Virus record (IMG/VR): IMGVR_UViG_3300025769_010106
Location: 44,480 to 108,479 of that record
DNA from: a virus
Length of the DNA stretch: 64,000 bases
Reading direction: 5' to 3' (one strand)
The position numbers were made by a program, and so were the translations under genes. Shown here piece by piece: positions 7,316 to 51,989 of the stretch. The notes beneath the pieces are model-generated. The model was not told the origin of the DNA and did not search any database. It saw only the letters and a program-made list of their open reading frames with translations. The stretch's first letter is position 1; the number at the start of each line of letters is the position of its first letter.

Positions 7316-7609
7316 TTAAAATATACCTATCATTAGTTTAGTATCTTCCGGTATAAGATCAGGTCCCCACTGTGGTTCCCATACAAGTTCACGTTCTACT
7401 TCTGTCACACCGTCAACATTTTTGCAGGCTTGGTATATGTCTTCGCATATTTGATCGGCAAATGGACACATAAAACTTGTTAAGCTATGCTTTACATGAA
7501 CTTTAGTTTTTTCTATTTCTATACTATATATCAAACCCAAATCGTAAACATTAACGCTTATCTCTGGATCATAGACAAGACGTAGTGCTTCTATTATCTT
7601 ATCTTTCAT
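7316..7609 (-). CDS. MIP18/DUF59-family (SufT/PaaD-like) iron-sulfur assembly protein
   Basis: A 97-residue single-domain protein. The N-terminal pattern IIEALRLVYDPEISVNVYDLGLIY contains the DPEI signature of the family. It is followed by the VHVKHSLTSFMCP strand with the conserved cysteine C48, then a helix and the closing VEVERELVWEPQWGPDL segment. Members such as SufT help insert Fe-S clusters into client proteins. Five radical SAM enzymes, each needing a 4Fe-4S cluster, are encoded upstream in the same operon, so a maturation role for those clients is a reasonable inference. Its start overlaps the carbamoyltransferase stop by 4 bp (ATGA). Confidence 0.88.
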   Translation of the reverse strand: MKDKIIEALRLVYDPEISVNVYDLGLIYSIEIEKTKVHVKHSLTSFMCPFADQICEDIYQACKNVDGVTEVERELVWEPQWGPDLIPEDTKLMIGIF

Positions 7610-9087
7610 GAGCAGACCTTCACACCATACTGCTTTTCAAAACGATCTGCGTCAGCACGATCATTTACCATGGGCTCGCCACGGATGTTTAGGCTAGTGT
7701 TTAATAGCATTGGGCAGTCTGTCATTACATACCACTTTTCAAGTAGGTCCCTTGCGCCAGTACGATCATCCTTGCCTACTGTTTGTACACGACTGGTGTT
7801 GTCATAATGTACTATTGCAGGGAATAGATCTGGACGCTTACATTTATAGGTAAACTGCATATAGGGACTCGTATCCAGTCTGGGCATATCAAAATAATCG
7901 TGTGCATGCTCCTCTAATATCATAGGAGCAAAAGGTCTGAACTTTTGTCTGCGTTTGATCTCGTTAACACGGTCTTTTATATCATCGCCGCGTGGGTCAG
8001 CAAGTAGACTGCGATTGCCCAGAGCACGTGGGCCAAACTCTGCACGACCACTTGCAACTCCTACAATACCTTCACGCTGTAGTTCGCCAATAATTTCTTC
8101 ACTGGGATATTCACCGGGAATGTTTGTTCCCAGATATGGCCCTTGCCAGTTTAAACGTTTGCCATATGCAAGAGCAGCAGCACCTAAACTACTACCACAG
8201 TCGCCAGGGTTTGGCATAACCCATAGTCTATTCCAGATATCACGAATCGCACTATTTGCAACACAGTTAAGAGCAACACCCCCCATGAACACGCAATCAT
8301 CAATATCAGTATTTGTAATACTTAATTGATGCATTGCCGTTCTGAGCATGCCTTCAGTGATCATTTGTGCAGCTCTGGCTATTTCTTCGATTGTATATTC
8401 ACTGGCGAAACTGTCTTCTACACCAACGTGAAAATTTCGTTTAAAAATCTGTTTATGTTCATTATCTAAACTACCAGTAACAACCTCGCGATATGCATTT
8501 GGAGATCCATACGCTGCCATACCCATGAGAATATATTCTTCTTCCATGGGTTTTAAACCACAACGCTTGGTCATTGCGCTGTAAAACAATCCTAAACTAT
8601 GAGGGTAGCGACGTGTATAAATCCTTTTATATTGTGCCCGACCTTGGTCATCGTATTCAGCACGATATGTTGACCAACAGTCCCATTCACCAATAGCATC
8701 TATTACTACCACAACAGCACGATCAAAGGGTGATGTTTGAAACCCTGCCGCAGCATGACTTAAATGATGTCCTGAGTATTTGTCTACTTTAAGTCCGTAT
8801 GGTTTTAATTGTTTAGTAGGACTAGGGTCACCAAACACTTTACGCCACTCACCACTATATAGTTGACGTGTTTTTTTCAGCCATGGACGTTCATACCAAG
8901 CAACTAAATCAGGCGTACCATAACCGAGTGCCTCAGCCATAATGCCTTCATTTAGTGTAGCATCATTTTTAACTTTACTATAGCGTTCGCTGTGACCTGC
9001 AAAAAGTATATTGCCTCTACTGTCCACGACACTGACACCAGCATCATGAAAGCCTGCACTCACGCCCATGTATGTTTTAAGTTTCAT
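7606..9087 (-). CDS. NodU/CmcH-type carbamoyltransferase
   Basis: Transfers a carbamoyl group from carbamoyl phosphate, through carbamoyl-AMP, to a hydroxyl of a sugar or similar acceptor. The N-terminal Kae1-like domain has the metal-binding HHLSHAAAG (H107, H108, H111) and the ATP-binding MGGVALNC (268-275). The C-terminal domain carries the hallmark GRAEFGPRALGNRS (347-360) and KRRQKFRPFAP. At 493 residues it is slightly shorter than the roughly 550-600 of NodU/TobZ. It lies between a 33-residue microprotein gene and the Fe-S protein gene, overlapping both by 4 bp. Relatives occur in marine T4-like phages. The acceptor is unknown; products of the surrounding glycosyltransferase genes are the obvious candidates. 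Confidence 0.95.
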   Translation of the reverse strand: MKLKTYMGVSAGFHDAGVSVVDSRGNILFAGHSERYSKVKNDATLNEGIMAEALGYGTPDLVAWYERPWLKKTRQLYSGEWRKVFGDPSPTKQLKPYGLKVDKYSGHHLSHAAAGFQTSPFDRAVVVVIDAIGEWDCWSTYRAEYDDQGRAQYKRIYTRRYPHSLGLFYSAMTKRCGLKPMEEEYILMGMAAYGSPNAYREVVTGSLDNEHKQIFKRNFHVGVEDSFASEYTIEEIARAAQMITEGMLRTAMHQLSITNTDIDDCVFMGGVALNCVANSAIRDIWNRLWVMPNPGDCGSSLGAAALAYGKRLNWQGPYLGTNIPGEYPSEEIIGELQREGIVGVASGRAEFGPRALGNRSLLADPRGDDIKDRVNEIKRRQKFRPFAPMILEEHAHDYFDMPRLDTSPYMQFTYKCKRPDLFPAIVHYDNTSRVQTVGKDDRTGARDLLEKWYVMTDCPMLLNTSLNIRGEPMVNDRADADRFEKQYGVKVCS

Positions 9088-9422: not shown

Positions 9423-10492
9423 GGTATTAATCCTAGTGCTTGCATCTGCACATTTTCGTAGTCTTCATCGTCTACAGTATAATCAAAGTAGTAGGGAACG
9501 CCATCTACTTCAATACTATATATGTTTAGAAGAGGACTCATCATATCCCAAATCTGCACAGGATCGGTTGTTCCAAAACTACTTAGCATATCTACTTGGC
9601 CCAGTGGCAAATATCCTAAACTAAGTCTTGGATCTGTTATATCCTTGCCATTGTCAATCATCCATTGATGGAATTCATCTATATCTTCGTTATGCCATTT
9701 ATGATCACCACCATATACTACATCTTTAGCCCACTCTATATCGAATTCACCACTATAATATTTTAAATCTGTAATTGCTTCGCATACTGTGTCAGTTAAC
9801 ATCGGAGCATCTTCGTCTCTCCATACTTCAAAGTATGTTTTTCCTATCTGACACCAGTGCATGTACACGCCACCAAACACACGATCATATCCGTTAGTCA
9901 CAAAGCCTGCACGATATTCATCTTCTAAGTGTAGACGCGGAGCGTTAAGAAATGTAGTAATCTGGCTGGGCCTTACCCACTCAGGTGCTAGGGCATCTTT
10001 AACTAAACTTAGTATGTATGTTTCCATCTCATGGCATAGGTTGTTTAATTGTCTAATACTATATTTTACTTTAGGAGATGCATTGTAATAATAATTACTT
10101 AAATTTCCAACTGTACCTTGTAATATTTCAAAATGATTATGTAAACGATTTAAAATATTGTGTTTGACATAATGCTGATGTCGAGAAAATTTATATTCTT
10201 TGGGATCAAACCAAACACTATCAGGCGTAAAGTGTTCTTCTATTCTGTAATCCAAATCACTTTTATTAATACGTTTTATATGCTTATTAAGTTCACTAAC
10301 CATAGCATGTAAGCCACGTGTCTGTTTTGGAAACCCCATAAAGCAAAAGTTCTTTTCTAGGTGTAGTCCGCGCTCAAGAATCTCTAATAGAGCAGTTTTC
10401 CATGCACGACCCAAGGGAATATCATGGGGAGTTATTGTGTAGTCTAACTCAACACCAGTTTCATGAGGACTTTTAAGAACTATTCGTATCAA
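9419..10492 (-). CDS. Conserved marine phage protein of unknown function
   Basis: A 357-residue soluble protein. I recall the same protein from other marine T4-like phage genomes through stretches such as EKNFCFMGFPKQTR, RLHNHFEILQGTVGNLS, IRQLNNLCHEMET and the C-terminal YDRVFGGVYMHWCQIGKTYFE. No catalytic motif is evident, although His, Asp and Glu residues in conserved-looking blocks (HNHFE, WHNEDIDEFHQW) could bind metal. The start appears to be TTG at 10492, overlapping the upstream radical SAM gene by 20 bp; no ATG lies near. Its persistent position beside radical SAM genes suggests a linked role, which is inference. Confidence 0.75.
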   Translation of the reverse strand: MIRIVLKSPHETGVELDYTITPHDIPLGRAWKTALLEILERGLHLEKNFCFMGFPKQTRGLHAMVSELNKHIKRINKSDLDYRIEEHFTPDSVWFDPKEYKFSRHQHYVKHNILNRLHNHFEILQGTVGNLSNYYYNASPKVKYSIRQLNNLCHEMETYILSLVKDALAPEWVRPSQITTFLNAPRLHLEDEYRAGFVTNGYDRVFGGVYMHWCQIGKTYFEVWRDEDAPMLTDTVCEAITDLKYYSGEFDIEWAKDVVYGGDHKWHNEDIDEFHQWMIDNGKDITDPRLSLGYLPLGQVDMLSSFGTTDPVQIWDMMSPLLNIYSIEVDGVPYYFDYTVDDEDYENVQMQALGLIP

Positions 10493-11750
10493 TACTTTCC
10501 CACCATTTTGCTAACTCAGTGTCGCGTAATGTATCAACGAACGGCATCCCGGCTCTTGCCGTATCTAGGCGTTCCATACGTCGCTTGGCCCGGGCTCTAG
10601 CCTTAGCATAGTCTTCGGGATACTCTTCCTCAAACGTAGGCCGTTTAATTAAGTTCATTAATACATCACGCATTGGACCTGATGTGTCAGGTAACACATC
10701 TGTTATTATAGCATGTAATATGTCTCTGGGCAAGAATAAAGGACTCATGGCAATATCAGGTGTGAACGCAAATGTAACTTTAGCAAGTATGTCTACACCC
10801 AAATCTGCTGCTAGTTTTTGTATATTGCGTATCTCAAATAAGCCTGGCACGGTTAGTGTAAAGTCTATACGCATTTGCCTACGGTATTTGCTAACAGCAA
10901 TACCCTGCTTGAAGTTTTCCAGCCACTGATCATATTTGAGTCCAGTGCGTATGTATTCTCCTACAGCACCAGTGCCATCCAAACTAGCACAAATCTGCCA
11001 GTCTCTTATCTTCGGCAATATATCAGTATAAAGGTTACAGCCACCAAACTCAATACGACTAAGGTTGGTATTGTATCTAGCGTATATACGTGGACCATCT
11101 CCTAGTTCAATAATACGTTGCATATAACGCCAGTGCTGTTCATACATAAGAGGCTCGCCGCCTACCCAGTATATTTCTTCAACACGATGTTCTTCCACTG
11201 CACAAGCAAACTCCTGTTCAACAGTATCTTTTTGAAACTTTTCTATTGCTTGCTTTACAGGCGTTTCCATCCAGGGTTCTATTTTGCCATCCATACGTGC
11301 TTCTGCTTCCCAACTGCTACTAAGCATTGGGCCGCACATACGACATTTAAAGTTACAGAGGTTAGTAAAACGATAGTCCCAACTCACAGGCTGCATACTA
11401 GTATAGCCCGTGTCATCTGTTGTTCGTGCTATGTCATCATACTTGTGTTTGAATAAATGCCAGAAGTAATCACGATAAACATCTGTGTTTAGTAATTTCT
11501 TGTCGCAAACCTCACACTCAGGTGGCAGTTCACCTGCTAGCATTTGACGGCGCACTCTGCGTATATGTTCACCGTTCCACCACTCATCCAGTGTTTGTGG
11601 CAAATATTCATTAGTGCCGGCGGCGGTGTCTATATACTGACGAAAGTTCTGAGCAGGTTCTCTGCTGGCACAACATAGCCTACGCTCTGTCTGTGGTGAC
11701 AGATAGGTGTGCGTCCAGGGTGCCATGCACAAGGTATCAGGTTTATTCAT
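10473..11750 (-). CDS. Radical SAM enzyme with N-terminal SPASM/twitch-like cysteine cluster (1 of 7)
   Basis: A 425-residue protein. The radical SAM motif CNFKCRMC (C132, C136, C139) binds the 4Fe-4S cluster that cleaves S-adenosylmethionine, and GGEP (197-200) lines the SAM site. Ahead of the core is a cysteine cluster (C8 in CMAPW, C26-C27, C79, C82). It resembles the auxiliary cluster half-domain normally found C-terminally in SPASM/twitch enzymes, so an extra Fe-S cluster is likely. Such enzymes often modify peptides or sugars; the substrate here cannot be read from sequence. The gene overlaps the SGNH-like gene upstream by 8 bp. A later segment, ASLDGTGAVGEYIRTG, matches the same region in its paralogues. 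Confidence 0.92.
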   Translation of the reverse strand: MNKPDTLCMAPWTHTYLSPQTERRLCCASREPAQNFRQYIDTAAGTNEYLPQTLDEWWNGEHIRRVRRQMLAGELPPECEVCDKKLLNTDVYRDYFWHLFKHKYDDIARTTDDTGYTSMQPVSWDYRFTNLCNFKCRMCGPMLSSSWEAEARMDGKIEPWMETPVKQAIEKFQKDTVEQEFACAVEEHRVEEIYWVGGEPLMYEQHWRYMQRIIELGDGPRIYARYNTNLSRIEFGGCNLYTDILPKIRDWQICASLDGTGAVGEYIRTGLKYDQWLENFKQGIAVSKYRRQMRIDFTLTVPGLFEIRNIQKLAADLGVDILAKVTFAFTPDIAMSPLFLPRDILHAIITDVLPDTSGPMRDVLMNLIKRPTFEEEYPEDYAKARARAKRRMERLDTARAGMPFVDTLRDTELAKWWESIDTNSS

Positions 11751-12306
11751 CTGCTAATGGAAATTCAAATTTCCCATCTGCTGCTTTCCTAAACAAGTCC
11801 GATACCCACTGATGCCATTCTGGTGCATAATGATGTCCCAATTTACTGATTGGCCATCGGTCGGGATGGTCGATATAGGGTATCAGATCATAAAGAGTCA
11901 TATCAATCAAGCGACATTGATTCTGCTCACAAATTGATTTCAAATCTATTAGATTCCTAGAAAAGTTTTTCCTACACCAGTCATCGTCGTGTGTTTCCAT
12001 AAAATAGATTCGATTACTGCATGTAGGAAGACTCTGATAAAACTTTCCATCTTTTTGATATTCAAATCTACTCCAATCTGGCCAAAGACAGTAGACTATG
12101 TTTGGTTTATGTTCCGGTACGAGATCTTGTGCCAGACGAACAACCTGATCACCGCTGGCTGATCCAACCCCAAAATTCTTAGCCCCTAACAGATAAGGCC
12201 AGGTTTCGTTGTTTTCTACTCCAACACCCCAGGTATGGCTGCAACCAAATGCTATAGAATCCGAATTGGTGATTTTATTCCTAAATTTCAGTGGATTTTC
12301 ACTCAT
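11743..12306 (-). CDS. SGNH/GDSL-hydrolase-like protein
   Basis: A 187-residue protein. Block I reads IAFGCSHTWGVGVENNETWP with the candidate nucleophile S23 in place of the GDS serine. Block II is GVGSASGDQ (G48). The C-terminal GHHYAPEWHQW offers the histidines expected of block V. This layout is that of SGNH hydrolases, which deacylate sugars or cut esters, and similar small versions occur in marine phages. The ATG at 12306 forms ATGA with the upstream stop; the TTG at 12312 is less likely. It sits between radical SAM genes in the operon. Activity is inferred; the replaced Asp residue leaves some doubt. Confidence 0.75.
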   Translation of the reverse strand: MSENPLKFRNKITNSDSIAFGCSHTWGVGVENNETWPYLLGAKNFGVGSASGDQVVRLAQDLVPEHKPNIVYCLWPDWSRFEYQKDGKFYQSLPTCSNRIYFMETHDDDWCRKNFSRNLIDLKSICEQNQCRLIDMTLYDLIPYIDHPDRWPISKLGHHYAPEWHQWVSDLFRKAADGKFEFPLADE

Positions 12307-13532
12307 AGCCAAGACTTTCTGCCAGCTCCCATAGCTATAGCAATAGGCGTGTGTGTTTCTAGAAAACTTTCATTTCTGAATTCGTCTGCCTTTTTCATCA
12401 ACCTTACAAATTTTTCACCATCACCAGTTGGACCATTTTTTATAAATTGTATTATTTTTTTTATTTCGTCTCTGTGTTGAGGAGGGAAATGATCCTGAGT
12501 TAGCCTATTAATAACTAAGTCTTTTGCTGCTTTAGTCATCTCACCTATATTCATATGCCTAGGGTCATGTAGCATATTAAAGTGATCGTAATCAAAATTC
12601 TGTTTTGAAACCCAGTCACAAAGATCCTTTAAATAGTAAACGTTTTGAGCGTTTATTGTCATACAAATTTGTAGTTGAATATTATCATTCTGCTCTCTTA
12701 AAATTTTAAACTTTTTGATATTTTCCTGTACCTGCTCCCAATCAGCACCATATCGTTCAAGTTCAAATCGTTTACCTACGTTATCAATACTAAATGCTAT
12801 TTCCACATACTTAAATTGTTTCCAAAGATCTATATGCTGTTCAGGATAGTGTGTGCCATTTGTATTATAATGTATTTCTATATTTTTTGCCAGATCCAGA
12901 TCAACAGCCCGTTGTAGGAGATTGAAGTGTTCCTGAATCATAAATGGTTCTCCGCCAGTAAATTCAAAGTGACGAATATTTGGTAGTATAGTTTCCATAT
13001 GCTCCCAAAAAATGTCACTTTCCCTAGGCCATCTTCCTTGCTTTAACCACGTATGTGCAATATTAAATTTAGTATCTGCCTTCCATTCTTTTTTATGATA
13101 TTCAATTTCTTCTGCTGCCCATTTGCTACTACTCCAACTGCCGCATATGCGACATTTAAGGTTACATATGTTACCCAACTTTAAATCTAAAAACCAAATA
13201 TCTTCAGGTTGAATGTTACTGTAATCTATTTTTTCACGTTCGTGTTTAAAACGTATGTCTGTATTCATACGCTTACTGGTTCTTCCAGCATCCTCTTCGT
13301 CCCAACAACGTTGACATGTTTTAGGACGCTCACCTTTTAGAAATTGTTCACGTAAATCTTTCATATAGTCACTCTGAAAGATATCTTTTAGTGTATGTTC
13401 TTTAAGATCATATTTCTCGCCATTTGGCTGGAGAATTTCATCTATAGCCATACAGCATGGACGAGTTGTGCCGAGTGGTGTTGTTTCTAAACTTACCCAG
13501 GGCAACATACATAAGGTTTTAGGGTTTTGCAC
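12303..13532 (-). CDS. Radical SAM enzyme with N-terminal SPASM/twitch-like cysteine cluster (2 of 7)
   Basis: A 409-residue paralogue of the 425-residue enzyme. The radical SAM motif is CNLKCRIC (C123, C127, C130) and GGEP lies at 193-196. The N-terminal extra cluster uses C8 (CMLPW), C26-C27 (RPCC), and C73 and C76 (CQRC). NGTHYPEQ and FSIDNVGKRFELERYG mark later strands of the barrel. The gene begins with GTG at 13532, inside the end of the upstream radical SAM gene (14-bp overlap), and ends ATGA with the SGNH-like gene. The substrate is unknown. Confidence 0.92.
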   Translation of the reverse strand: MQNPKTLCMLPWVSLETTPLGTTRPCCMAIDEILQPNGEKYDLKEHTLKDIFQSDYMKDLREQFLKGERPKTCQRCWDEEDAGRTSKRMNTDIRFKHEREKIDYSNIQPEDIWFLDLKLGNICNLKCRICGSWSSSKWAAEEIEYHKKEWKADTKFNIAHTWLKQGRWPRESDIFWEHMETILPNIRHFEFTGGEPFMIQEHFNLLQRAVDLDLAKNIEIHYNTNGTHYPEQHIDLWKQFKYVEIAFSIDNVGKRFELERYGADWEQVQENIKKFKILREQNDNIQLQICMTINAQNVYYLKDLCDWVSKQNFDYDHFNMLHDPRHMNIGEMTKAAKDLVINRLTQDHFPPQHRDEIKKIIQFIKNGPTGDGEKFVRLMKKADEFRNESFLETHTPIAIAMGAGRKSWL

Positions 13533-14847
13533 GAGCCGGCTCCAGTTCAGGAAAAGTTTTCCAGAAGTCTTCTTTTCTGAAGTTATCTAATTTTGCTACT
13601 TCAAATTCAAATCTTTCCCAGTTTTTTTCATAATTATCCTTAGCATTTAAGAAACTTATTACACCTTCTAAACCAGTTGATGCCCTGTTAAGTGAATCTT
13701 GAGGTCTTAACCATTCAATATGCTTCCTATATGCAGGTTCAATAACTTCCTTCTTAAACCAAGTTGGGAATATATCTATTCTGTACCAATCAGGACTTTG
13801 ACATATATTAATATTTAAGTCTTTAGGTTGTATGAACCCACGCTCTACCCAATCACGATGAAAATCAAGCACATGTAATACATTTTGACTTGTAATAGTT
13901 GCACTAATATAGAAGTCTATATGTGGAACTTCTTCAATCATTCTCTGTCTGTTTTCTTCTGTTTTTTTCCACACGGCACCCTTGCGTATTAGTTCCCCTT
14001 GTTTGCCCATTCCGTCTAGACTTGCACCAATACTAACATTATTAAAGTGTTTCCAATACTCTATGACATGTTTGTCTTTATATCTAAGTTCACTAAAGTT
14101 AGTGTTATATAGTAAACGTACATTTGTCTTTCCATGCTCGATAAGTTTTTCAAGTAGATAATAATGCTCTTTCATTATAAGCGGTTCGCCGCCTGCAAAA
14201 TATACTTGTTCTAAGTATGGTATATGCTTTTCCATTTGAGCGATCATACCATCTTCATCACCAGTCGTATATTCAACTCTTGCCATATCTCTGCCAAGTA
14301 CATCTGGTTTGACACCATAGAGTCCTATATAATCCTCATACCAATTACTACTAAAAATAGGGCCACAACTTCTACATTTAAAATTACAGAGGTTACTAAA
14401 CCTAACATCCCAGTATCTTATTTTAAACTCATCATGGTTACCATCTTGACTTGTTTTATCAAGGTCCTTGATTAAATGACCATAGTTACGATTAGCATCA
14501 TTACGCATACTGAAGAAACCATTTTCTTCTTGTTCATAACATTTACCACATTCAACACAAGTATTTTCTTCCATCATGTTCTTGCGTAATCTTTTATAAC
14601 CTTCTTGATTCCAAACTTCCTCCATTGTATTCTTTCTTAGATCACCAACTGGATGCCAGTAATCAGCAAAACAACAGGGATATGCTCTGCCGTCCGGAAA
14701 CGCATGCATATGTACCCATGGAAGCATACAGAATCGTTTGCTCTCAATGAGTTTAAATTTTTCGTCTTCAGTTAATTTTTCTAATTCAATGAAGTGTGGT
14801 TTACGTTCATCATATTTGAAATTTTTGTAAAAGTCCTTGTTAGACAT
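13519..14847 (-). CDS. Radical SAM enzyme with N-terminal SPASM/twitch-like cysteine cluster (3 of 7)
   Basis: A 442-residue paralogue. It carries about 30 extra N-terminal residues before the first cysteine. The auxiliary cluster is C40 (CMLPW), C58-C59 (YPCC) and C97, C100 and C103; the catalytic cluster is CNFKCRSC (C154, C158, C161), with GGEP at 219-222 in YFAGGEPLIMKEHYY. The segment after the radical SAM cysteines (SCGPIFSSNW) is nearly the same as in the 425-residue enzyme, so these two are the closest pair. It overlaps the upstream gene by 8 bp. Confidence 0.92.
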   Translation of the reverse strand: MSNKDFYKNFKYDERKPHFIELEKLTEDEKFKLIESKRFCMLPWVHMHAFPDGRAYPCCFADYWHPVGDLRKNTMEEVWNQEGYKRLRKNMMEENTCVECGKCYEQEENGFFSMRNDANRNYGHLIKDLDKTSQDGNHDEFKIRYWDVRFSNLCNFKCRSCGPIFSSNWYEDYIGLYGVKPDVLGRDMARVEYTTGDEDGMIAQMEKHIPYLEQVYFAGGEPLIMKEHYYLLEKLIEHGKTNVRLLYNTNFSELRYKDKHVIEYWKHFNNVSIGASLDGMGKQGELIRKGAVWKKTEENRQRMIEEVPHIDFYISATITSQNVLHVLDFHRDWVERGFIQPKDLNINICQSPDWYRIDIFPTWFKKEVIEPAYRKHIEWLRPQDSLNRASTGLEGVISFLNAKDNYEKNWERFEFEVAKLDNFRKEDFWKTFPELEPARAKP

Positions 14848-16186
14848 TCTGATACCAATCCTTCAATTCTGGAAATACTGAGATTAAGTCCTTTTTTCTA
14901 CGCACGTCATACTGACTATAAAACTTTTTAAAGTCATTGTGTAGTTTAGGCATTTCAAATGCTTCACTGTGCGGTGTTTCTACTGTACGCAAATATGTTA
15001 CCAGTCGTTCCAACTGTCCTTGTTCAAACTGGTGCATGGGTGTACTACGGTTAAGAAACTTGGGTGCCCAGCGTTTGTATAGGTCTTCCAATTTATCAGC
15101 GTGACGATTGCGTATATCCAATGGAAGTACTAGTGCCGACTGGAAACTTGGAAAGCGTAATATATTTAAACTGAATACTGCAAAATTATTCCCTAACAGT
15201 CTTCTTGTTTGTAATATTTGCTCGATTAGGTCTGGTAGTGTCTCCAAGCACAGCGCATTAACTGTCATCATGCAATGTGTGCCAACGCCTGCCTCACTCA
15301 ATCTGCAAATATTTTCCCACCAATAGTCCCAATCTAATCCGTCACGTATATATTCTGCAGGCGCCCCTACTGCTTCACAACTGGTGTAAACATCCAAGCT
15401 AGGCAAGTAATTACGAGCATCAATTAGTCTGTCAATTAACTCACCCTTGCCTCCTAAGTTACTATTAATAGCAAGTTTGGTTTGGCTTTTGTCTGCGTTT
15501 GCTTTGAACCAATCTATTAAACGCCACAAGTCTGCGCTCATTGTTGGCTCACCGCCGGTAACTCGTAGTTCACGTAATGTTTTATGTAAGTCTGTATCCC
15601 ACCATTTAAAAAATGCTTCTACGTAAGGATTTCTATCCTCCACCCCATAAAGCTGGCTACTACTATGAACGTGAGTAAAGTGGTTACGGCCATCACTAAC
15701 AAGGCCCTTATAACTGCCATTTGTTTTTAGGTCCTTTACCCATGTGGTGCTAAAAGCAGGATTACAGTAACTACAAGCAAAATTGCAGGTACGATCAAAT
15801 GCAATTTCGAGTGTACGGAGATTGACGTCAATATCATGCGGGCTATTTCGTGCATCTTGTAATTCCTCATCAGTATATATCTTGCTCTTATATACACGGT
15901 CACTTATAAAATTAGGACCCATATCTTCAATTTTCCAACAATACTCACAGCCGGTTGGACGCTCTCCACACTGCATTTGTCGCCGCTGTTCTTTTTTCTC
16001 TGGTGTATTGTGTAACAATTTTGGATTAGTTTCAACAGCAACAGGATCTACTTTATGTGGTAATGGATGATGGCAACTAGTAGTCATGCCAGATCCTAAC
16101 CAGATAGTAGCATTATACCATTTAGCACCACAAAAGGTCGGACTAAGTTTGTCTAGAACTTCCTGTTTATAAATTAAGTCATCCAT
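14840..16186 (-). CDS. Radical SAM enzyme, second subfamily (4 of 7)
   Basis: A 448-residue protein. The catalytic motif is CNFACSYC (C134, C138, C141) with GGEP at 211-214 in RVTGGEPTM. The N-terminal extra cluster differs from the first subfamily: C19 in FCGAKW, then SCHHP (C38) where the others have CC, then C73, C80 and C83. Only its neighbour encoded at 16179-17546 shares this arrangement, together with NPYxEAFxxWW and the closing FPEL. The pair probably arose by tandem duplication and may work as a heterodimer or on successive steps. It overlaps its neighbours by 8 bp on both sides. Confidence 0.92.
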   Translation of the reverse strand: MDDLIYKQEVLDKLSPTFCGAKWYNATIWLGSGMTTSCHHPLPHKVDPVAVETNPKLLHNTPEKKEQRRQMQCGERPTGCEYCWKIEDMGPNFISDRVYKSKIYTDEELQDARNSPHDIDVNLRTLEIAFDRTCNFACSYCNPAFSTTWVKDLKTNGSYKGLVSDGRNHFTHVHSSSQLYGVEDRNPYVEAFFKWWDTDLHKTLRELRVTGGEPTMSADLWRLIDWFKANADKSQTKLAINSNLGGKGELIDRLIDARNYLPSLDVYTSCEAVGAPAEYIRDGLDWDYWWENICRLSEAGVGTHCMMTVNALCLETLPDLIEQILQTRRLLGNNFAVFSLNILRFPSFQSALVLPLDIRNRHADKLEDLYKRWAPKFLNRSTPMHQFEQGQLERLVTYLRTVETPHSEAFEMPKLHNDFKKFYSQYDVRRKKDLISVFPELKDWYQNV

Positions 16187-17546
16187 TTGCTATATACCTA
16201 CATTCATCCCAAAATTCTCTCATCTCAGGAAATGTTTGTTCAAAGTTTGTGCCGCGGCGACGATCATGCTCACTAAAAAATCTATAAAAGTCTGCTCTGC
16301 GCGTGTCCACATCACTTACATTATCCACACCCTGCATCCAGACTAGATCACGTCTCATCTTTAGTACTTCGTAGTCCTTAAATCCGTGCATCTCATCTAA
16401 ATTTGATTCCATAAATTTTATACAGTCTTTAAGATATAACTGATATGCCGGAGTTAATATCTGCATACTTTGCCATTCAGGAGTATACAGTAATGGAGTA
16501 TCAAACCAAATACGCTGATAACTTTTGGTATAAGTCTTGCGAAGGTATAAAATATATTCTAGCAGTCTTTTCAAACTAATAATATTAAGATTACTCATAG
16601 TAATTATTAGAGTTAAACTACTGCGATAGGGAATGTCGCGCACAAATCTTTCTATGCGTGACTTACAAAGTTCAAAGTCAAGTCCATGTCTAATATATTC
16701 AGCCTGTGCACCCCAGGTATCTAAGCTAACAAACTGCATGAAGTGTTCAATCTTTTCACCCTGTGTAAGCTGATGTATATAACCCATATAGTTTTCAAAA
16801 ATATAATCATCTGTACTAAAGTTACTAGTAGTGTTTAAATGCAAATCTTTTTTAGGATTATCAAGCACATAATCAAACACACGATAGGTATTTGGATCCA
16901 TGGTAGGTTCGCCACCAGTCATACGAAAATGTTTTAGGTCTTTGTATAGATCAGGCCACCAACGCCAGAATGCTTCACGGTATGGATTGGCATCTTTATT
17001 GGGGATTGGTTTGCGTTCACCAATAAAATGTGCAGGATCATTATGTGGTGTGCTAGTAGGATAAGAACCATACTGCTTGGCTTCGCGTTCCCAGGTACTA
17101 CTAAACTGTGGGCTACAATAACTGCACTTCAAATTGCAAGCGTGATTAAAGTTAACTTCTACATAACTTGGATTTACATCTGCTTGTGGATTTGCTACAA
17201 TATCAGCAAATGATTCCATAGCCCAGGGTTCACCACTGCGATAATGACGATCACTGATTGCGTTAGGTTGACTTTCAATATTCCAACAGTAGTTGCATTC
17301 AGTACACTTGACACCCTGTATCATTTCAGCACGGCGCTCTTTCTTATGTGCAGTATTATGCAGGGCACTTGGATTGTCTGCAAGCGGCTCAACAGGAATG
17401 CGATGCAGTGGGGGATGGTAGCAACTATTGGTATGTCCGGTTGTTAAGTGTAGACTAACCTGTTTCCATTTAGCCAGGCAGAAACTATCGCTCACAGTAG
17501 CGAGTTTATACTTTGCTATATTAGCATCAAAAAGGTAATCACTCAC
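16179..17546 (-). CDS. Radical SAM enzyme, second subfamily (5 of 7)
   Basis: A 455-residue paralogue of the 448-residue enzyme. The catalytic motif is CNLKCSYC (C137, C141, C144) and GGEP lies at 211-214 in RMTGGEPTM. The auxiliary cysteines are C23 (FCLAKW), C42 (SCYHP), and C81, C84 and C87. The matching spacing of GGEP to the radical SAM motif in both proteins supports tandem duplication. The start is GTG at 17546, overlapping the upstream stop as GTGA. The substrate is unknown; SLDTWGAQAEYIRHG corresponds to the substrate-side segment seen in the other members. Confidence 0.92.
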   Translation of the reverse strand: MSDYLFDANIAKYKLATVSDSFCLAKWKQVSLHLTTGHTNSCYHPPLHRIPVEPLADNPSALHNTAHKKERRAEMIQGVKCTECNYCWNIESQPNAISDRHYRSGEPWAMESFADIVANPQADVNPSYVEVNFNHACNLKCSYCSPQFSSTWEREAKQYGSYPTSTPHNDPAHFIGERKPIPNKDANPYREAFWRWWPDLYKDLKHFRMTGGEPTMDPNTYRVFDYVLDNPKKDLHLNTTSNFSTDDYIFENYMGYIHQLTQGEKIEHFMQFVSLDTWGAQAEYIRHGLDFELCKSRIERFVRDIPYRSSLTLIITMSNLNIISLKRLLEYILYLRKTYTKSYQRIWFDTPLLYTPEWQSMQILTPAYQLYLKDCIKFMESNLDEMHGFKDYEVLKMRRDLVWMQGVDNVSDVDTRRADFYRFFSEHDRRRGTNFEQTFPEMREFWDECRYIANG

Positions 17547-18469
17547 CAGCCTTCGGCCTTTCTAATAACTTCTATTTCTGTAGTCATAGGATCGTATGCA
17601 TGATAGGTTTGACTATAATAGTGCTTGAAGAATCTACTTTGTTCTGGTGTGTAATCAACGATTGGTAATTCAAGTTTACGTCTTAGTATAGCACCATATT
17701 CAGTAAAGTTTTCATCCCCAATATCCCATTCTTCTTCCCAAATTCTATCCAAACTAGCAAAGTCTCTAACTTCATGCCAGTCCCAATCAGTACACATTAG
17801 TTTATATGTACCGTACCTAGCACCATACATTGCCTCAAACCCATATTGTGCGTCAGCACCAACACTGTGCCAAACACAGAGCTTGTCAAAGTTTTTAGCA
17901 TGTACCTGTTGCTTAAATTCTTCTACAGTAGGCTTGCGTCCTTTGTTAAGGCACATCTTAACGCCTTCTCTAAAACCAGCACGGAACGCATGTCTAGCAC
18001 TACCATTAGGATATGTAGTACTATAAACATTGTTCATTGCAAGATACTTGTCGTCAAAGCAAAACTCTACTACAGTTTCATCTGTACCGTCAGTTGCTTC
18101 ATGTGTCTGCATATTATTAACAAACTCACGTGTCCAGCAACTAAGTCCACCGTTGCCATACATAAGCCCGTTTATATTATTGCGAGCTTTCCAACGAAAC
18201 ACGCAATCAGCATATTCCTCTTTTATATCTAATACAAGATTGAAAAACGATTCATCAGGTATGTTGTCACCGTCTATGAGAACAAAGCGTTCTGTTTCAC
18301 TTACTGCTGCCGCTGCTTTGTGTGCTGCATCACTTCCTTGCACACCATCCACACGTTTGGCCCAGGGAACCATATTTTGGATTTGAATCCAGAACTCTTC
18401 CTTTTTAGGTTCGTCAAATGAAAGATAGATGCAGTCTAGATCTGCAATATCAATTATTTGTCCAGCCAC
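17543..18469 (-). CDS. GT-A-like glycosyltransferase family protein
   Basis: A 308-residue protein with CIYLSFDEPKKEEFW at the N-terminus, then VPWAKRVDGVQG, then a helix and FVLIDGDNIPDES, whose DGD resembles the metal- and nucleotide-sugar-binding DxD of GT-A enzymes. NNINGLMYGNGGLSCW and RHAFRAGFREGVKM complete the pattern. I associate this domain with large marine phage proteins of unknown acceptor. The C-terminal module of the 769-residue protein encoded at 3080-5389 is a clear paralogue. The start is GTG at 18469, 8 bases after AAGG, overlapping the upstream gene by 16 bp. The role in glycan assembly is inferred. Confidence 0.72.
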   Translation of the reverse strand: MAGQIIDIADLDCIYLSFDEPKKEEFWIQIQNMVPWAKRVDGVQGSDAAHKAAAAVSETERFVLIDGDNIPDESFFNLVLDIKEEYADCVFRWKARNNINGLMYGNGGLSCWTREFVNNMQTHEATDGTDETVVEFCFDDKYLAMNNVYSTTYPNGSARHAFRAGFREGVKMCLNKGRKPTVEEFKQQVHAKNFDKLCVWHSVGADAQYGFEAMYGARYGTYKLMCTDWDWHEVRDFASLDRIWEEEWDIGDENFTEYGAILRRKLELPIVDYTPEQSRFFKHYYSQTYHAYDPMTTEIEVIRKAEGW

Positions 18470-18684
18470 TCGTGCAACCTTGCTACATCTTGGTCACTGT
18501 CTATACATACACGAATACCACGTGCATACACTGTGCGGTCTAGTTCATAGCTAGAACTAAATGACTGTTCACAAAACAATTTTAGCTCTGTGAATAGTTC
18601 TTGATTGTCTCTAAATTGAGCATCATAAATTATATCACCTGAATTTGCCACATGTGGTAGAGGAACATATACTTCATTCTGCAT
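18454..18684 (-). CDS. Small hypothetical protein
   Basis: A 76-residue acidic soluble protein with no recognised motif. It has a strong Shine-Dalgarno sequence (AAAGGAGA) located inside the end of the upstream gene, with which it overlaps by 11 bp, so it is very likely translated. Its two cysteines (FCEQSF and RVCIDS) are not spaced like a metal site. It lies between two glycosyltransferase-type genes. Confidence 0.65.
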   Translation of the reverse strand: MQNEVYVPLPHVANSGDIIYDAQFRDNQELFTELKLFCEQSFSSSYELDRTVYARGIRVCIDSDQDVARLHEWLDK

Positions 18685-18991
18685 TTTCTATCTCCTTTAT
18701 ACAAAAATATGGATTATTTTTTAATGTAATTGCTGGTGTGGCTTGCCAGTAAACATGGACGGCTGTATCTATATCAACGATTTTGCCATCCTGAACACGC
18801 TGTCTTATAGGATATACCAGTGTATCCTCTGATATAACGATATAGTCTTCAGTCCAGTGTTCAGCTTTATTTACATGACAATAGTTAATAATTTCACCAG
18901 TTTCTTTATTGTAGCGCAAACGAACCTCAAGTTCAACCTTAGTGCGATTGCCTAATAATTCAACTATTAATTTTTTTAACTCTGTACTCAT
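18674..18991 (-). CDS. Small hypothetical protein
   Basis: A 105-residue protein with a predicted alpha/beta composition: an N-terminal helix (STELKKLIVELLGNR), then alternating beta strands (KVELEVRLRYNKETGEI, DYIVISEDTLVYPI, VDIDTAVHVYW). No family is recognised. It overlaps the upstream GT-like gene by 32 bp and the downstream gene by 11 bp, in keeping with the operon. Confidence 0.6.
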   Translation of the reverse strand: MSTELKKLIVELLGNRTKVELEVRLRYNKETGEIINYCHVNKAEHWTEDYIVISEDTLVYPIRQRVQDGKIVDIDTAVHVYWQATPAITLKNNPYFCIKEIENAE

Positions 18992-19808
18992 ATCTATCTA
19001 TCAATTCTGGAGTGCAAAATGTTTTATCGTAATAGTGGAATGGATACTGTTGTGCATATCCGCCTACAATTAAATCAAAATCGTCTGTTAGTGTCCATGA
19101 TACAGCATCCTGCCAGCGCATACTATTCTTCCAGTTATTAATTGCCGGCTTCATATGTGTAAACGTCGGATAACTTAATTTATTTGAACAAGGTATTCCA
19201 AGATTTAACTGTGCTAGCGCATAAAGAACATCAGTGTCAGGTTTGTCATAGATACTATACTCAAGAACACTGTCACGCAACTCAGCCCAATGGTGTATCG
19301 CCTGCTCAATAGCTCTACAGAAGCCCACACTAGTCCTACTGTACCTAAAATATGAAAACCCATTATAAGCATCATCAAGCTGATTGGCATCAAAAAACTT
19401 CCTGTAGTAACGTGTTTGGGCAATATTACCCTGGTAATCTCTTACACTATTAGTATAGCACACATCATTTAATCTACAACCGTTCCACCAGTGATCCAAA
19501 CTGCGAGGAATAATCATGTCACTTTCTACTTTAAATGTTTCCTTAAAGGGTGTAACATTTATAATCCATGCTTCGTTGTAGAAAGGTTCTGTGCGTGGTA
19601 CTGTAATTATGTGATCAAATATCTTACGTTGCTGTTCTGTAATAGTTGCCTCAGATTCAGCATCAACTACTACGGCAAATCTGTTGTGCTTACAAGTTGC
19701 CTTTACGCTTAGAGCAAGTAAGTAGGCGAGGTCAACATAGTTTGTTGCCTTACTGTTCTGTGCAAATGTTAGCCAACCCTGTGGCTCATCCTTGGGTTGC
19801 ATACGCAT
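18960..19808 (-). CDS. GT-A-like putative glycosyltransferase
   Basis: A 282-residue protein. An N-terminal strand-helix region (YVDLAYLLALSVKATCKHNRF followed by AVVVDAES) is followed by ETFKVESDMIIPRSLDHWW, where ESDM takes the place of a DxD metal site. SYFRYSRTS and PDTDVLYALAQLNL occur later. The layout is like small GT8/GT-A proteins of marine phages. The neighbouring 261-residue protein looks like a distant paralogue with a clearer DVD. The start is the ATG at 19808, six bases after GGAG, overlapping the upstream gene by 23 bp. The altered metal motif leaves activity uncertain. Confidence 0.6.
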   Translation of the reverse strand: MRMQPKDEPQGWLTFAQNSKATNYVDLAYLLALSVKATCKHNRFAVVVDAESEATITEQQRKIFDHIITVPRTEPFYNEAWIINVTPFKETFKVESDMIIPRSLDHWWNGCRLNDVCYTNSVRDYQGNIAQTRYYRKFFDANQLDDAYNGFSYFRYSRTSVGFCRAIEQAIHHWAELRDSVLEYSIYDKPDTDVLYALAQLNLGIPCSNKLSYPTFTHMKPAINNWKNSMRWQDAVSWTLTDDFDLIVGGYAQQYPFHYYDKTFCTPELIDRYEYRVKKINS

Positions 19809-20571
19809 CTAGTGCTCCGTATATTTCTGGGTCCTGTAAACAGGCTTTGTTCATACAGTGTAAGTTTACGCCTTTGAGTTTAACAGCATTATACTTGTCA
19901 CCGTCTTGATAGCGTATGCGTAGTTCATCACCTTTAGCAGAATAGATAGTGTCCATTGTGCTTAAACTACCCAGTGGATGATTAAAGTAAGTACCACTAG
20001 CATAGCCATTCATAAGCTGATGTGCAATAGTTAGACTAAAGTCATTGCGATATTTGCCTGCTACAAATCCCCAAAACTTTGCGTAGTAACGCCAGTTGGT
20101 CTGTACGTTTTTCATCATTTCAAATATATTATGGGCTAGGTCGCACTTGCGAAAGTAAACGACCGTAGCCCATAACATTGGATGGCCGGCCCTGGTCATC
20201 CTTTGATCGTTACGGAAACTATTTGTGGAGGTAACATCCCATACACGATCATAACATAAAAACTCATTTGCACTACCAAAGTACTGTTTTAGATTATCAT
20301 TAAACGTAAGGTAGTCTACGTCTATTAAGAGTGTTTCATCATAAGGGCTTAAATCATATGCCAGTGTTCTATCACTGTTATACCATGGCACTGTAACAAC
20401 TTGACCATCATGCCAGCGGAACGCTCTAGTATTGCCTGGCTGTGCTTCACCTACATGTATGTGTGTTTCAATGTCTAAATGTTTTTCTACAAGTTTTGCC
20501 GCTAGGTTAGCAAAACCCGTATAGTCTATTGTTTCATGTGGTGTAGCAAGTAAGAGTGCGCCCTTACTCAT
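19786..20571 (-). CDS. GT-A-type putative glycosyltransferase
   Basis: A 261-residue protein. The start KGALLLATPHETIDYTGFAN fits the first nucleotide-binding strand, and ETLLIDVDYLTFNDNL contains a DVD matching the DxD motif used by GT-A enzymes for metal and nucleotide-sugar binding. FSLTIAHQLMNGY and GVNLHCMNKACL lie in the C-terminal half; LHCMNK may be the late His that completes the metal site. It overlaps the cytidylyltransferase gene by 8 bp. That neighbour could supply a CDP-activated precursor. Donor and acceptor are unknown. Confidence 0.68.
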   Translation of the reverse strand: MSKGALLLATPHETIDYTGFANLAAKLVEKHLDIETHIHVGEAQPGNTRAFRWHDGQVVTVPWYNSDRTLAYDLSPYDETLLIDVDYLTFNDNLKQYFGSANEFLCYDRVWDVTSTNSFRNDQRMTRAGHPMLWATVVYFRKCDLAHNIFEMMKNVQTNWRYYAKFWGFVAGKYRNDFSLTIAHQLMNGYASGTYFNHPLGSLSTMDTIYSAKGDELRIRYQDGDKYNAVKLKGVNLHCMNKACLQDPEIYGALDAYATQG

Positions 20572-20968
20572 TAATACGTTTCCTTAAATCACTTGTACTA
20601 AAACGATGCTCTCTTTTATTAAAATAAAATTCTATACCTCGTTTTGCACATATGGCTCTTCCAGTAAACTTTCCATCTCTATATTCTTCGCCAAGTATAC
20701 GAACATTAATATGATACATTGACAAAATATCTTCTAAATCCTGTTCAGTGCAGTAGGGAACAATTTCGTCTACGTATCTTACTCCCTTTAGTTGTGTATA
20801 ACGTTCAACCACAGTTTGAACTGGCTTGTTCTTTTCCGGTCTATCAATACTAGGATCAACCTGTAATCCGCATATTAGGTAATCGCATTGTTCTTTTGCT
20901 TCACGTAACATTTGCACATGGCCAGCATGTAAAAGATCAAACGCAGATGCTGTAAATCCTACTCTCAT
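20564..20968 (-). CDS. Cytidylyltransferase-family nucleotidyltransferase (TagD-like)
   Basis: A 134-residue, single-domain enzyme of the HxGH nucleotidyltransferase superfamily. GFTASAFDLLHAGHVQML carries the HAGH signature (H14, H17) for CTP or ATP binding. REHRFSTSDLRKRI near the C-terminus matches the R-x-x-x-(I/F)-S-T-(S/T) closing motif of glycerol-3-phosphate cytidylyltransferases. Size fits TagD (about 130 residues). It would activate glycerol phosphate or a sugar phosphate for the glycosyltransferases encoded downstream. It starts ATGA over the upstream stop. The exact substrate is not determinable. Confidence 0.88.
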   Translation of the reverse strand: MRVGFTASAFDLLHAGHVQMLREAKEQCDYLICGLQVDPSIDRPEKNKPVQTVVERYTQLKGVRYVDEIVPYCTEQDLEDILSMYHINVRILGEEYRDGKFTGRAICAKRGIEFYFNKREHRFSTSDLRKRINE

Positions 20969-21291
20969 AGTTGTTCTACACGTCTAACCTTTTTTAATTC
21001 AGCATGCTGATTGTGCCAATCGTTCATTACTTCGTACCAGCGTTGTCTACATTGTACTAACATGTCACAAGCATCTGTAATCTTTACTGGATTATCGTAG
21101 TCGTCTACGAGATATAGCAGTTCATCTGCTGGCCATGTTGCTAGTAGAGACATTAGTTCTACTGTAACTTTAAACTGTCCACCATCATATGTGATAGTGA
21201 GACGCTGTTCCTGTTGTTCTTTAAGAGCCAAGCGTTGACGATTGTGGTCAAGACGCTGGCGTGCGAATTGTTCGAATGTTTCTAAGGTCAT
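20965..21291 (-). CDS. Hypothetical protein, first gene of the minus-strand operon
   Basis: A 108-residue protein when started at the ATG at 21291 (MTLETFEQFARQRLDHNRQR). An upstream in-frame extension to 21327 would run through a promoter and is unlikely. Residues 1-30 are a charged helix, the middle is beta-like (RLTITYDGGQFKVTVELMS), and the C-terminal part is helical. The family is not recognised. The start codon lies only seven bases past a -10 element, so the message may be leaderless; no Shine-Dalgarno sequence precedes it. It overlaps the cytidylyltransferase gene by 4 bp. Confidence 0.6.
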   Translation of the reverse strand: MTLETFEQFARQRLDHNRQRLALKEQQEQRLTITYDGGQFKVTVELMSLLATWPADELLYLVDDYDNPVKITDACDMLVQCRQRWYEVMNDWHNQHAELKKVRRVEQL

Positions 21292-21298
21292 GTAAGAT

Positions 21299-21327
21299 AG
21301 TATAACAGGGCTATATAGCCCTGTCAA
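21299..21327 (-). promoter_or_regulatory. Sigma70-type promoter with a 20-bp palindromic operator in the spacer
   Basis: On the minus strand TTGACA (21327-21322) is followed after exactly 17 bases by TATACT (21304-21299), five of six matches to TATAAT. The spacer holds the perfect 20-bp palindrome ACAGGGCTATATAGCCCTGT (21305-21324), which enters the -35 box. This is an ideal place for a repressor operator. It points into the operon of about 20 minus-strand genes that runs to 6448. The predicted start of transcription is at about 21292, next to the ATG at 21291. The same palindrome could instead fold in the RNA of the preceding fibre gene, which ends at 21334. Confidence 0.7.
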
Positions 21328-21333
21328 TTACTA

Positions 21334-22281
21334 TTAAGATTCTGTGTTAACTGTTGTTGCCCAGCTGGGTGTGCCCCAGCTTGCACTAATATATGTTGTA
21401 GCTGATGCTTGGTAACTGAATGTTGTTGTCTTGCTACCATTTACTTGGTCAAGTACGTTATAAATGTTCTTGTTGTATGATGTTTGGTCCGCTGCATCAT
21501 CCTTCCAAGTGCTGGTTAGTGTCATTACAGTTGAACTACCTGCTGCGGCATTCAGTGAAGCTTGTAGCTGAATATAGTTAGCTGTGTAGGGTGAGGTATC
21601 TGCAAGTTGTTTAAACATTGTTGATGTGCCTGTGGTCAAGTCCCAGAAACCTGCGTTTGTTAGATTAGTTGATGGACTACCACTACCACCACTTTTACCA
21701 CTAGTGGTATTGTAGATGTAATATGTTCCGCACTTAGAGTTTGCTAAATCAACCCACTCGTTGTACTTGGCGTCGGCAGTACCACCAGAAATGTTCCAAC
21801 TTACATAAACGCGGCCGCCTGCGTTGAAGAAGTAACGCATAGCATTTGCACTCGCAAATGTAAGTGTATTGGTTTGTGTAATTGTGTTTGTAAATGTTCC
21901 GCTTACTACTGCGGTATCTGTAACTGCTGTGGCATAACCAGGTGCTGGAGTGACTACAGCAATCTGTGCTGCATCAAGTGTACCAATGTCAGCTGATAGT
22001 GTTGCGAGTGCACTAATTGTATCACCGGTAGTTGGGTTAGTTACTGTATCAATAGTAATGCTACCGTCCTGACCGTACTGATCACTAAGTAGACGTATTT
22101 TGTTTAACAGGTCTGCCCACTCCGCGGCCGCAACGTTATCGCCTGCGGACCTTGAGCTTGGTGACACAGCAGTTTGACCAAGTCCTCTATTTCCCGTTCC
22201 GGTACTCCATAAATTGTTTACACTTGCTACAAAACCGTTGTAGTGTGAAGCTTCAATTGTACCCCCAGTTGTATATGCCAT
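21334..22281 (-). CDS. Virion structural protein (fibre-associated, putative)
   Basis: A 315-residue Ser/Thr/Gly/Asn-rich protein with the N-terminal MAYTTGGTIEASHYNGF and a helix WADLLNKIRLLSDQYGQDG. The remainder is beta-rich with strands of the kind found in phage tail or fibre proteins. I recall homologues in marine T4-like phages annotated as virion structural proteins. It is the last of the minus-strand late genes and ends about 10 bp before the palindromic promoter. The precise location in the virion is unknown. Confidence 0.7.
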   Translation of the reverse strand: MAYTTGGTIEASHYNGFVASVNNLWSTGTGNRGLGQTAVSPSSRSAGDNVAAAEWADLLNKIRLLSDQYGQDGSITIDTVTNPTTGDTISALATLSADIGTLDAAQIAVVTPAPGYATAVTDTAVVSGTFTNTITQTNTLTFASANAMRYFFNAGGRVYVSWNISGGTADAKYNEWVDLANSKCGTYYIYNTTSGKSGGSGSPSTNLTNAGFWDLTTGTSTMFKQLADTSPYTANYIQLQASLNAAAGSSTVMTLTSTWKDDAADQTSYNKNIYNVLDQVNGSKTTTFSYQASATTYISASWGTPSWATTVNTES

Positions 22282-28110: not shown

Positions 28111-28118
28111 TATTTATA
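28111..28118 (-). promoter_or_regulatory. Late promoter motif TATAAATA
   Basis: A perfect match to the T4 late promoter consensus on the minus strand, 20 bp before the ATG of the large fibre gene (28090). AGAGGA follows as a ribosome binding site. It lies in the 35-bp gap after the giant gene. Confidence 0.65.
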
Positions 28119-51920: not shown

Positions 51921-51936
51921 TTTTCTTCCTTTTATA

Positions 51937-51965
51937 TTGTTATAAGTATTTATAGGCTGTATAAT
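51937..51965 (+). promoter_or_regulatory. Sigma70-type promoter for gp55
   Basis: On the plus strand TTGTTA (51937-51942), a 17-base spacer and a perfect TATAAT (51960-51965) lead to gp55 with a 24-base leader that includes the strong ribosome site AAGGAAGG. It interleaves with the late promoter on the opposite strand. Confidence 0.5.
51947..51954 (-). promoter_or_regulatory. Late promoter motif TATAAATA
   Basis: A perfect T4 late promoter consensus on the minus strand, 26 bp before the gp48 start at 51920. It heads the late structural block gp48, gp53, hub, gp5, gp25. Confidence 0.65.
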
Positions 51966-51989
51966 GTACATAGTTTTTAAGGAAGGTAC

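Follow-up and report, generated by a model that had tools for sequence, protein, structure and literature searches.

A conserved set of five radical SAM genes with N-terminal twitch domains beside the tail-fibre genes of large T4-like phages

What might a phage modify with five neighbouring radical S-adenosylmethionine (SAM) enzymes whose genes lie behind those for its tail fibres? The question is raised by a stretch of 64,000 nucleotides (the window), positions 44,480 to 108,479 of the IMG/VR record IMGVR_UViG_3300025769_010106, which is a linear fragment of 108,479 bases from a large aquatic phage. The source is a T4-like jumbo-type myophage, as judged from its baseplate wedge protein, which shares 34% identity with the counterpart in Agrobacterium phage Atu_ph07 (490 kb). 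The five genes, termed P1 to P5, form an array on the minus strand. Judged from their phylogeny, they are old orthologous lineages and not recent duplicates. The set is common to hundreds of uncultured phages and to one lineage of predatory bacteria. Their arrangement was followed in 94 deduplicated uncultured viral loci possessing all five genes, the window included, which were fetched using P3 and P4.

Radical SAM genes of the window and their lineages

The radical SAM genes and the open reading frame (ORF) within the array are as follows (NF033640 values are whole-protein scores):

16179–17546, minus strand: P5, N-twitch radical SAM gene, FCLAKW...SCYHP class; NF033640 306 bits; C23, C42, C84, C87 and C137, C141, C144 invariant in 60 of 60 relatives
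14840–16186, minus strand: P4, N-twitch radical SAM gene, FCGAKW...SCHHP class; NF033640 304 bits; C19, C38, C80, C83 and C134, C138, C141 invariant; AlphaFold2 mean pLDDT 92.0
13519–14847, minus strand: P3, N-twitch radical SAM gene, CMLPW...CC class; NF033640 391 bits; twitch aligned with BtrN; AlphaFold2 mean pLDDT 95.3
12303–13532, minus strand: P2, N-twitch radical SAM gene, CMLPW...CC class; NF033640 360 bits
11743–12312, minus strand: SGNH/GDSL-like ORF (189 amino acids) between P2 and P1, assigned by motif only, with no Pfam match; family in 44 of 94 loci
10473–11750, minus strand: P1, N-twitch radical SAM gene, CMAPW...CC class; NF033640 294 bits
54258–55403, plus strand: P6, divergent N-twitch radical SAM gene (CPAAW) outside the array, overlapping an SDR-like gene; NF033640 232 bits
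57782–58873, plus strand: seventh radical SAM gene, ordinary order (C-terminal SPASM), overlapping the SDR gene 57189–57785; Pfam Radical_SAM and SPASM

A sequence-only reading of the window had noted five adjacent genes, and a further one at 54258, in which additional cysteines precede the catalytic CxxxCxxC motif. This order was confirmed by Pfam, by conservation in 60 of 60 relatives of each of P1 to P5 and by the NCBIfam model NF033640 (N_Twi_rSAM, twitch domain-containing radical SAM protein), whose curated cut-off of 170 bits was exceeded by all six proteins (232–391 bits). Pfam placed SPASM at residues 8–103 of P1, P2, P3 and P6 (in P1 just under the cut-off), followed by Radical_SAM. 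The latter domain (PF04055) scored above the cut-off in P1 to P4 and P6 and below it in P5. Two marks of the superfamily, CxxxCxxC and GGEP, are invariant in the alignment of P1 to P6. Due to the NF033640 scores and the succession of SPASM and Radical_SAM in Pfam, the cysteine-first order can be regarded as real and not as a chance arrangement. As a novelty it had to be abandoned, however, because NF033640 is already defined by an N-terminal twitch. The family shares with the P-proteins a twitch followed by the radical SAM core, but it is defined by this architecture, and its model does not include a fixed set of five paralogues. NF033640 has no function assigned in the family library, and its accession was not found in the open-licence literature searched. 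While the array itself exists, its genes are not strictly adjacent, since the SGNH/GDSL-like ORF separates P2 and P1; the position of homologues of this ORF near the array varies between loci. Altogether, the window contains seven radical SAM genes, the seventh having the usual order with a C-terminal SPASM domain.

In the tree, P1 to P5 each formed a separate clade across phages with 97–100% support, and each clade joined its own bacterial relatives. Recent tandem duplication, which the sequence-only reading had wished to date, was therefore rejected, each paralogue being an old, separate lineage. The division into two motif subfamilies made in that reading (CMxPW...CC and FCxAKW...SCxHP) is right: P4 and P5 form one clade, P1, P2 and P3 represent three separate lineages, and P6 belongs to neither class. 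The order P5-P4-P3-P2-P1 on a single strand was found in 87 of the 94 loci, the order P5-P4-P3-P1-P2 in another five. P3 and P2 are fused to one ORF of approximately 850 amino acids in four loci (L017, L030, L146, L149), and in L038 another N-twitch domain is joined to P1. Some loci harbor cassettes inserted between P5 and P4 and between P2 and P1.

The N-terminal domain

In all 60 relatives of each of P1 to P5, the four twitch cysteines and the CxxxCxxC motif are 100% conserved. Thus, there is no degenerate copy among the five array genes. A profile built from P3 relatives matched BtrN (PDB 4m7t, E=6e-6), a twitch enzyme from the butirosin pathway. Profile positions 11–81, corresponding to approximately residues 36–108 of P3 with C40, C58, C100 and C103, pair with the C-terminal BtrN twitch such that each cysteine falls on a cysteine; the core CxxxCxxC of the profile aligns separately with the N-terminus of this enzyme. 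Because twitch and core align separately and in swapped positions, the P-proteins are relatives of BtrN with a permuted domain order, and their N-terminal domain is, according to these alignments, a permuted BtrN-type twitch. BtrN, the 2-deoxy-scyllo-inosamine dehydrogenase, oxidises an aminocyclitol alcohol, and its auxiliary [4Fe-4S] cluster is held by four cysteines (PMC9012708). The likeness extends over approximately 70 residues including all four cluster cysteines. By contrast, the twitch is C-terminal in BtrN but located ahead of the core in the P-proteins, and similarity elsewhere is low. Homology and conservation suggest that the P-proteins likewise contain a second [4Fe-4S] cluster.

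The N-terminal motif comprises four cysteines in P4, P5 and P6 and five in P1 to P3, where the second ligand is one cysteine of a CC doublet. P4 and P5 possess the same four cysteines with the spacing C-x18-C-x41-C-x2-C, and their profile gave matches to radical SAM cores only, such as MoaA. None of P1 to P6 has the seven-cysteine SPASM motif of two auxiliary clusters, and in all six the domain is N-terminal, unlike the canonical C-terminal placement of the auxiliary cluster in enzymes of the BtrN and MoaA type. The AlphaFold2 models of P3 and P4 were confident, and their Foldseek neighbours include anSME, SkfB, SuiB, MoaA and viperin with low TM-scores. Due to these scores and the permuted domain order, Foldseek was not decisive as a proof of the second cluster, and the BtrN sequence profile was used instead.

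Outside both cluster motifs, an extra cysteine at a group-specific position is conserved to 97–100% in P1 (C254), P2 (C290), P4 (C313) and P5 (C449); it is possible that this residue serves as H-atom donor or substrate ligand. In a phage subgroup (L020, L028, L126 and others), the P3 orthologue carries an extra N-terminal domain of approximately 150 amino acids with no Pfam match. A different one of approximately 190 amino acids is carried by P5 in L026, L116 and L162.

Gene neighbourhood of the array

The genes surrounding the array and a promoter-like site, all on the minus strand, are:

28111–28118, minus strand: T4-late-promoter-like TATAAATA, 20 nt before the ATG of 24482–28090
24482–28090, minus strand: second tail-fibre-like protein, C-terminal domain in common with F; phrog_19602, phrog_22593
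22297–23763, minus strand: F, tail-fibre-like structural protein; phrog_19602 tail fiber, E=7e-11
21334–22281, minus strand: T, 315 amino acids, Ser/Thr/Asn-rich, adjoining the tail-fibre genes, candidate modification target; 76 of 94 loci
20965–21327, minus strand: S, small conserved protein between T and G3; 76 of 94 loci
20564–20968, minus strand: cytidylyltransferase-like (CTP_transf_like); Pfam E=7e-14
19786–20571, minus strand: G3, GT8/glycogenin-like glycosyltransferase (GT); profile of G2 and G3 (A6)
18960–19808, minus strand: G2, GT8/glycogenin-like GT; the same profile (A6) matches glycogenin, E=2e-6; G2/G3 family in 87 of 94 loci
17543–18469, minus strand: G1, GT-A-like (FVLIDGDN motif), directly ahead of P5; motif only, no PDB or Pfam support; G1 family in 93 of 94 loci, mostly directly upstream of P5
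9419–10492, minus strand: Q, conserved protein of 357 amino acids directly after P1; 76 of 94 loci
7606–9087, minus strand: C, NodU/TobZ-type O-carbamoyltransferase; Pfam E=3e-50; profile matches to the structures of novobiocin carbamoyltransferase, GdmN and TobZ; 73 of 94 loci
7316–7609, minus strand: DUF59/FeS_assembly_P (PaaD/SufT-like) Fe-S assembly protein, overlapping C; Pfam E=1e-17; near the cassette in 9 of 94 loci

Since the loci had been fetched with P3 and P4, two further searches were baited with the non-radical-SAM genes Q and T. P1 adjoins Q in 78 of 80 loci retrieved with Q. With T as bait, T-S was present at every locus, and all 19 loci with enough DNA run G3-G2-G1 and then P5. 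The conserved linkage is T-S-G3-G2-G1-P5..P1-Q-C; its counts are not independent events, because some contigs turn up in more than one search. The C-terminal half of T is variable. For Q and G1, a PDB profile search gave nothing, nor did Pfam reveal anything of use for them or for the relatives of G1.

From F down to position 9198, all genes lie on a single strand, either overlapping or with gaps of no more than 16 nt. The run comprises F, T, S, the cytidylyltransferase gene, G3, G2, two small ORFs (18454–18684 and 18674–18991, without precursor features), G1, P5, P4, P3, P2, the SGNH-like ORF, P1, Q and an ORF of 74 amino acids, and is followed by C and the DUF59 gene. The T4 late promoter consensus, TATAAATA, is present at two positions of the 64 kb (nine occurrences expected), both times on the minus strand and 20–26 nt ahead of an ATG of a structural ORF (24482–28090 and 51102–51971); in the latter case, the ATG is an internal in-frame start of the listed ORF. 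In some relatives, the site is situated at a similar distance ahead of the first fibre gene. Because of the overlapping one-strand run and the late-promoter-like sites before structural genes, the five-gene module looks as if it were co-expressed late with the tail fibres. As in virion glycosylation islands, GT genes lie within a structural operon, G3-G2-G1 being located between the tail-fibre and the radical SAM genes, with G1 a GT by motif only.

Just upstream of the array near G1, a protein of 105–117 amino acids (L040:4877–5212 and relatives) is encoded in 57 of the 94 loci; the window ORF 18674–18991 is similar in size and place. In L342 and L343, a DUF59/PaaD-like gene is located between G1 and P5. 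Two pelagiphage-like contigs (L345, L346) contain Q beside GT-like and fibre-like genes and have no radical SAM genes in the flanks, so that Q is separable from the radical SAM set.

Large relatives (168–347 kb) possess 8–21 N-twitch genes per genome. Neither P4 nor Q had a match in 50,697 records of cultured phages. P3 matched only the Vibrio phages K566 and K567 (23% over most of its length), and a partial match was obtained in an uncultured single-cell marine virus contig. The region 14977–19379 of K566 (L167) harbors three divergent N-twitch genes with a gene for 311 amino acids in between. No other annotated phage records matching P3 were found, so that K566 and K567 provide a laboratory entry point.

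Several components of the system have been known. TARA_ERS488813_N000010, a T4-like environmental virus reported in 2017, has 12 radical SAM genes together with paaD (DUF59), grx and cas4 (PMC5332604); the passage in question lists them as Fe-S genes and does not describe an ordered five-gene module, a linkage to tail genes or an N-terminal twitch. In the host-recognition cluster of pelagimyophages, GT genes and exchangeable radical SAM cassettes adjoin tail-fibre genes, but the cluster was read as changing the lipopolysaccharide (LPS) of the host, and the radical SAM cassettes received only a passing mention (PMC7029224). GTs of mycobacteriophages modify capsid and tail-tube subunits (Freeman et al. 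2023, cited in PMC12619734), which is similar in that virion proteins are decorated by GTs but different in that the passage citing this work mentions no radical SAM enzymes. The moraphage paper PMC12619734, considered as a possible description of the present lineage, does not contain the term "radical SAM" in its text. In the open-licence literature searched, we found no ordered five-lineage module, no T-S-G3-G2-G1-P5..P1-Q-C linkage, no permuted-BtrN assignment and no chromosomal counterpart, although an earlier description elsewhere is possible. What is new is the conserved five-gene system, while the N-twitch architecture, T4-like marine viruses with multiple radical SAM genes and radical SAM cassettes in pelagimyophages were known.

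Bacterial counterparts and the possible target

N-twitch genes were also found in Bacteroidota, Bdellovibrionota, Elusimicrobia, Acidobacteria and others. A Bacteriovoracaceae contig (L181), which is chromosomal by rsfS, obg, lgt and an L27-like ORF, carries P4, P1, n, P3, P2, P5 and P4 and hence relatives of all five lineages. Each of these sequences sits beside the matching phage lineage in the tree, the bacterial sequence branching outside the phage clade every time. Since this chromosome groups all five lineages, the five types travel or persist as a set. That the genes act as one multi-enzyme unit, as had been proposed from the sequence alone, gains support from this counterpart, the fixed order, the fusions and the searches with non-radical-SAM baits. 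Neither evidence against a second cluster nor close homologues with a different established role came to light.

In an Oligoflexia genome, an N-twitch gene lies close to a radical SAM gene of ordinary order fused to a G1 domain, which is related to the seventh radical SAM gene of the window. In Bacteroidota contig L200, a NodU-type carbamoyltransferase gene directly adjoins an N-twitch gene. A Pfam tally of 145 neighbours of bacterial N-twitch genes was weak and revealed no single context (three carbamoyltransferases, three GT2, five PhyH, four SDR). Large fusions occur as well: Elusimicrobia bin-0981 (L193, L195, L198, L204) contains tandem arrays in which every N-twitch radical SAM protein is joined to long TPR-like repeats (up to 1159 amino acids), a Bdellovibrionales ORF of 1611 amino acids (L350:5116–9951) continues from an N-twitch radical SAM part into approximately 1100 amino acids of unidentified sequence, and the N-twitch radical SAM protein of L196:9965–11911 has a C-terminal extension that is GT2-like by motif reading, with no Pfam match.

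The enzymes predicted around the set (glycogenin-like G2/G3, the TobZ/GdmN-type carbamoyltransferase, the cytidylyltransferase, SDRs and a DegT aminotransferase) are of types expected to act on sugars or small-molecule hydroxyls, and tail-fibre genes are the most constant physical partners of the set. For these two reasons, we tentatively favour, at somewhat less than even chance, a dedicated late multi-enzyme radical pathway that attaches a glycan-like conjugate to a tail-fibre protein and tailors it. P5-P4-P3-P2-P1 would be a dedicated set of five non-interchangeable enzymes, encoded among the tail-fibre genes of a T4-like jumbo phage and expressed late, each combining a SAM-cleaving [4Fe-4S] site (CxxxCxxC) with an auxiliary one in the permuted twitch. 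The GT-like proteins G3, G2 and G1 might attach or build a glycan or similar conjugate on one of the tail-fibre proteins encoded next to them (T or F). This conjugate would be tailored stepwise by the five radical enzymes through oxidation, epimerisation, deoxygenation or cross-linking, Q may assist and the NodU/TobZ-like enzyme could add an O-carbamoyl group. We infer the tail fibre as target, the glycan on it and every individual reaction. The earlier suggestion of a glycan or the virion as target fits this context, in which GT8-like genes, the carbamoyltransferase gene and tail-fibre genes lie in one run. The fusion to a G1 domain in Oligoflexia, the carbamoyltransferase gene adjoining an N-twitch gene in Bacteroidota and the action of BtrN on an aminocyclitol also speak for the favoured pathway. 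Several points weigh against this explanation. The main difficulty is the chromosomal set of L181, which has no tail-fibre, Q or G1 gene beside the five lineages; F and Q were also undetected in five such Bdellovibrionota genomes. Hence, the substrate need not be a phage protein. Moreover, the linkage to tail genes could partly reflect the shared synteny of one phage lineage, G1 is a GT and the late promoters are promoters by motif and consensus match only, and no precursor, sugar or reaction has been identified.

The occurrence of bacterial relatives without tail genes would be compatible with a set that remodels the surface glycan of the host (LPS or O-antigen) during infection, with GTs and carbamoyltransferase modifying LPS for superinfection exclusion or receptor masking. 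GT and LPS genes in the host-recognition clusters of pelagimyophages, where radical SAM cassettes were noted, have been interpreted in this way (PMC7029224), and carbamoyltransferases of this type act on small-molecule sugars. On the other hand, an overlapping run behind the tail-fibre genes with a late-promoter-like site would be late for superinfection exclusion, and the conserved block showed neither a lipid carrier nor a flippase or membrane GT. This alternative is unlikely. Equally unlikely is a modification of the tail-fibre polypeptide itself in the manner of maturases of ribosomally synthesized and post-translationally modified peptides, by which residues would be epimerised, cross-linked or hydroxylated before GTs and carbamoyltransferase decorate them. 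The fixed linkage to fibre genes, the peptide-modifying SPASM enzymes anSME, SkfB and SuiB among the nearest folds and the paralogue-specific cysteines (e.g. P1 C254, P2 C290) as possible H-atom donors speak for it. However, the Foldseek matches are dominated by the common radical SAM barrel and not substrate-specific, P1 and P2 start straight at the twitch cysteines, which leaves no room for an N-terminal RRE domain, T varies in its C-terminal half and the sugar-type neighbours would be left unexplained.

That independent radical SAM enzymes merely accumulated as auxiliary metabolic genes in a hypervariable host-recognition region, with no common pathway, is the least probable explanation. 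It would agree with the N-twitch genes scattered over the genomes of large relatives, the cassettes inserted at P5/P4 and P2/P1 and the T4-like phages known to have multiple radical SAM genes (PMC5332604). Yet it conflicts with the same order and strand of five lineages in most loci, the retention of all cluster ligands, the fusions of adjacent genes and the bacterial chromosome grouping the same five lineages. Returning to the fibre-conjugate pathway, a wider form of it, which we consider rather doubtful, is a five-enzyme radical assembly line which jumbo phages have in common, as a unit, with predatory Bdellovibrionota. It would place a radical-derived decoration of a kind not seen before on fibre-type adhesins, namely the tail fibres of the phages and perhaps also fibre-like proteins on the surface of the predators. 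If true, radical SAM chemistry would for the first time be seen to mature a part of a virion. Radical SAM enzymes perform some of the hardest biological reactions, and five distinct ones, fully conserved and in fixed order in a tail cluster, imply a costly chemistry that is strongly selected where phage and host meet. Three features render the question of the substrate directly testable: the conserved boundaries from T to C, the chromosomal set of Bdellovibrionota and the existence of isolated Vibrio phages that possess three divergent members. In addition, a solved pathway would assign a role to the widespread N_Twi_rSAM family, for which the library searched names none.

Two further features of the window are worth mentioning. 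The SDR-type genes 53798–54268 and 57189–57785 each overlap the start of a radical SAM gene (54258 and 57782, respectively), pairs which we presume to be reminiscent of the AprD4/AprD3 pair of radical SAM enzyme and reductase. A single ORF of 4444 amino acids (28126–41460) is flanked by the baseplate wedge gene on one side and by the tail-fibre genes on the other.

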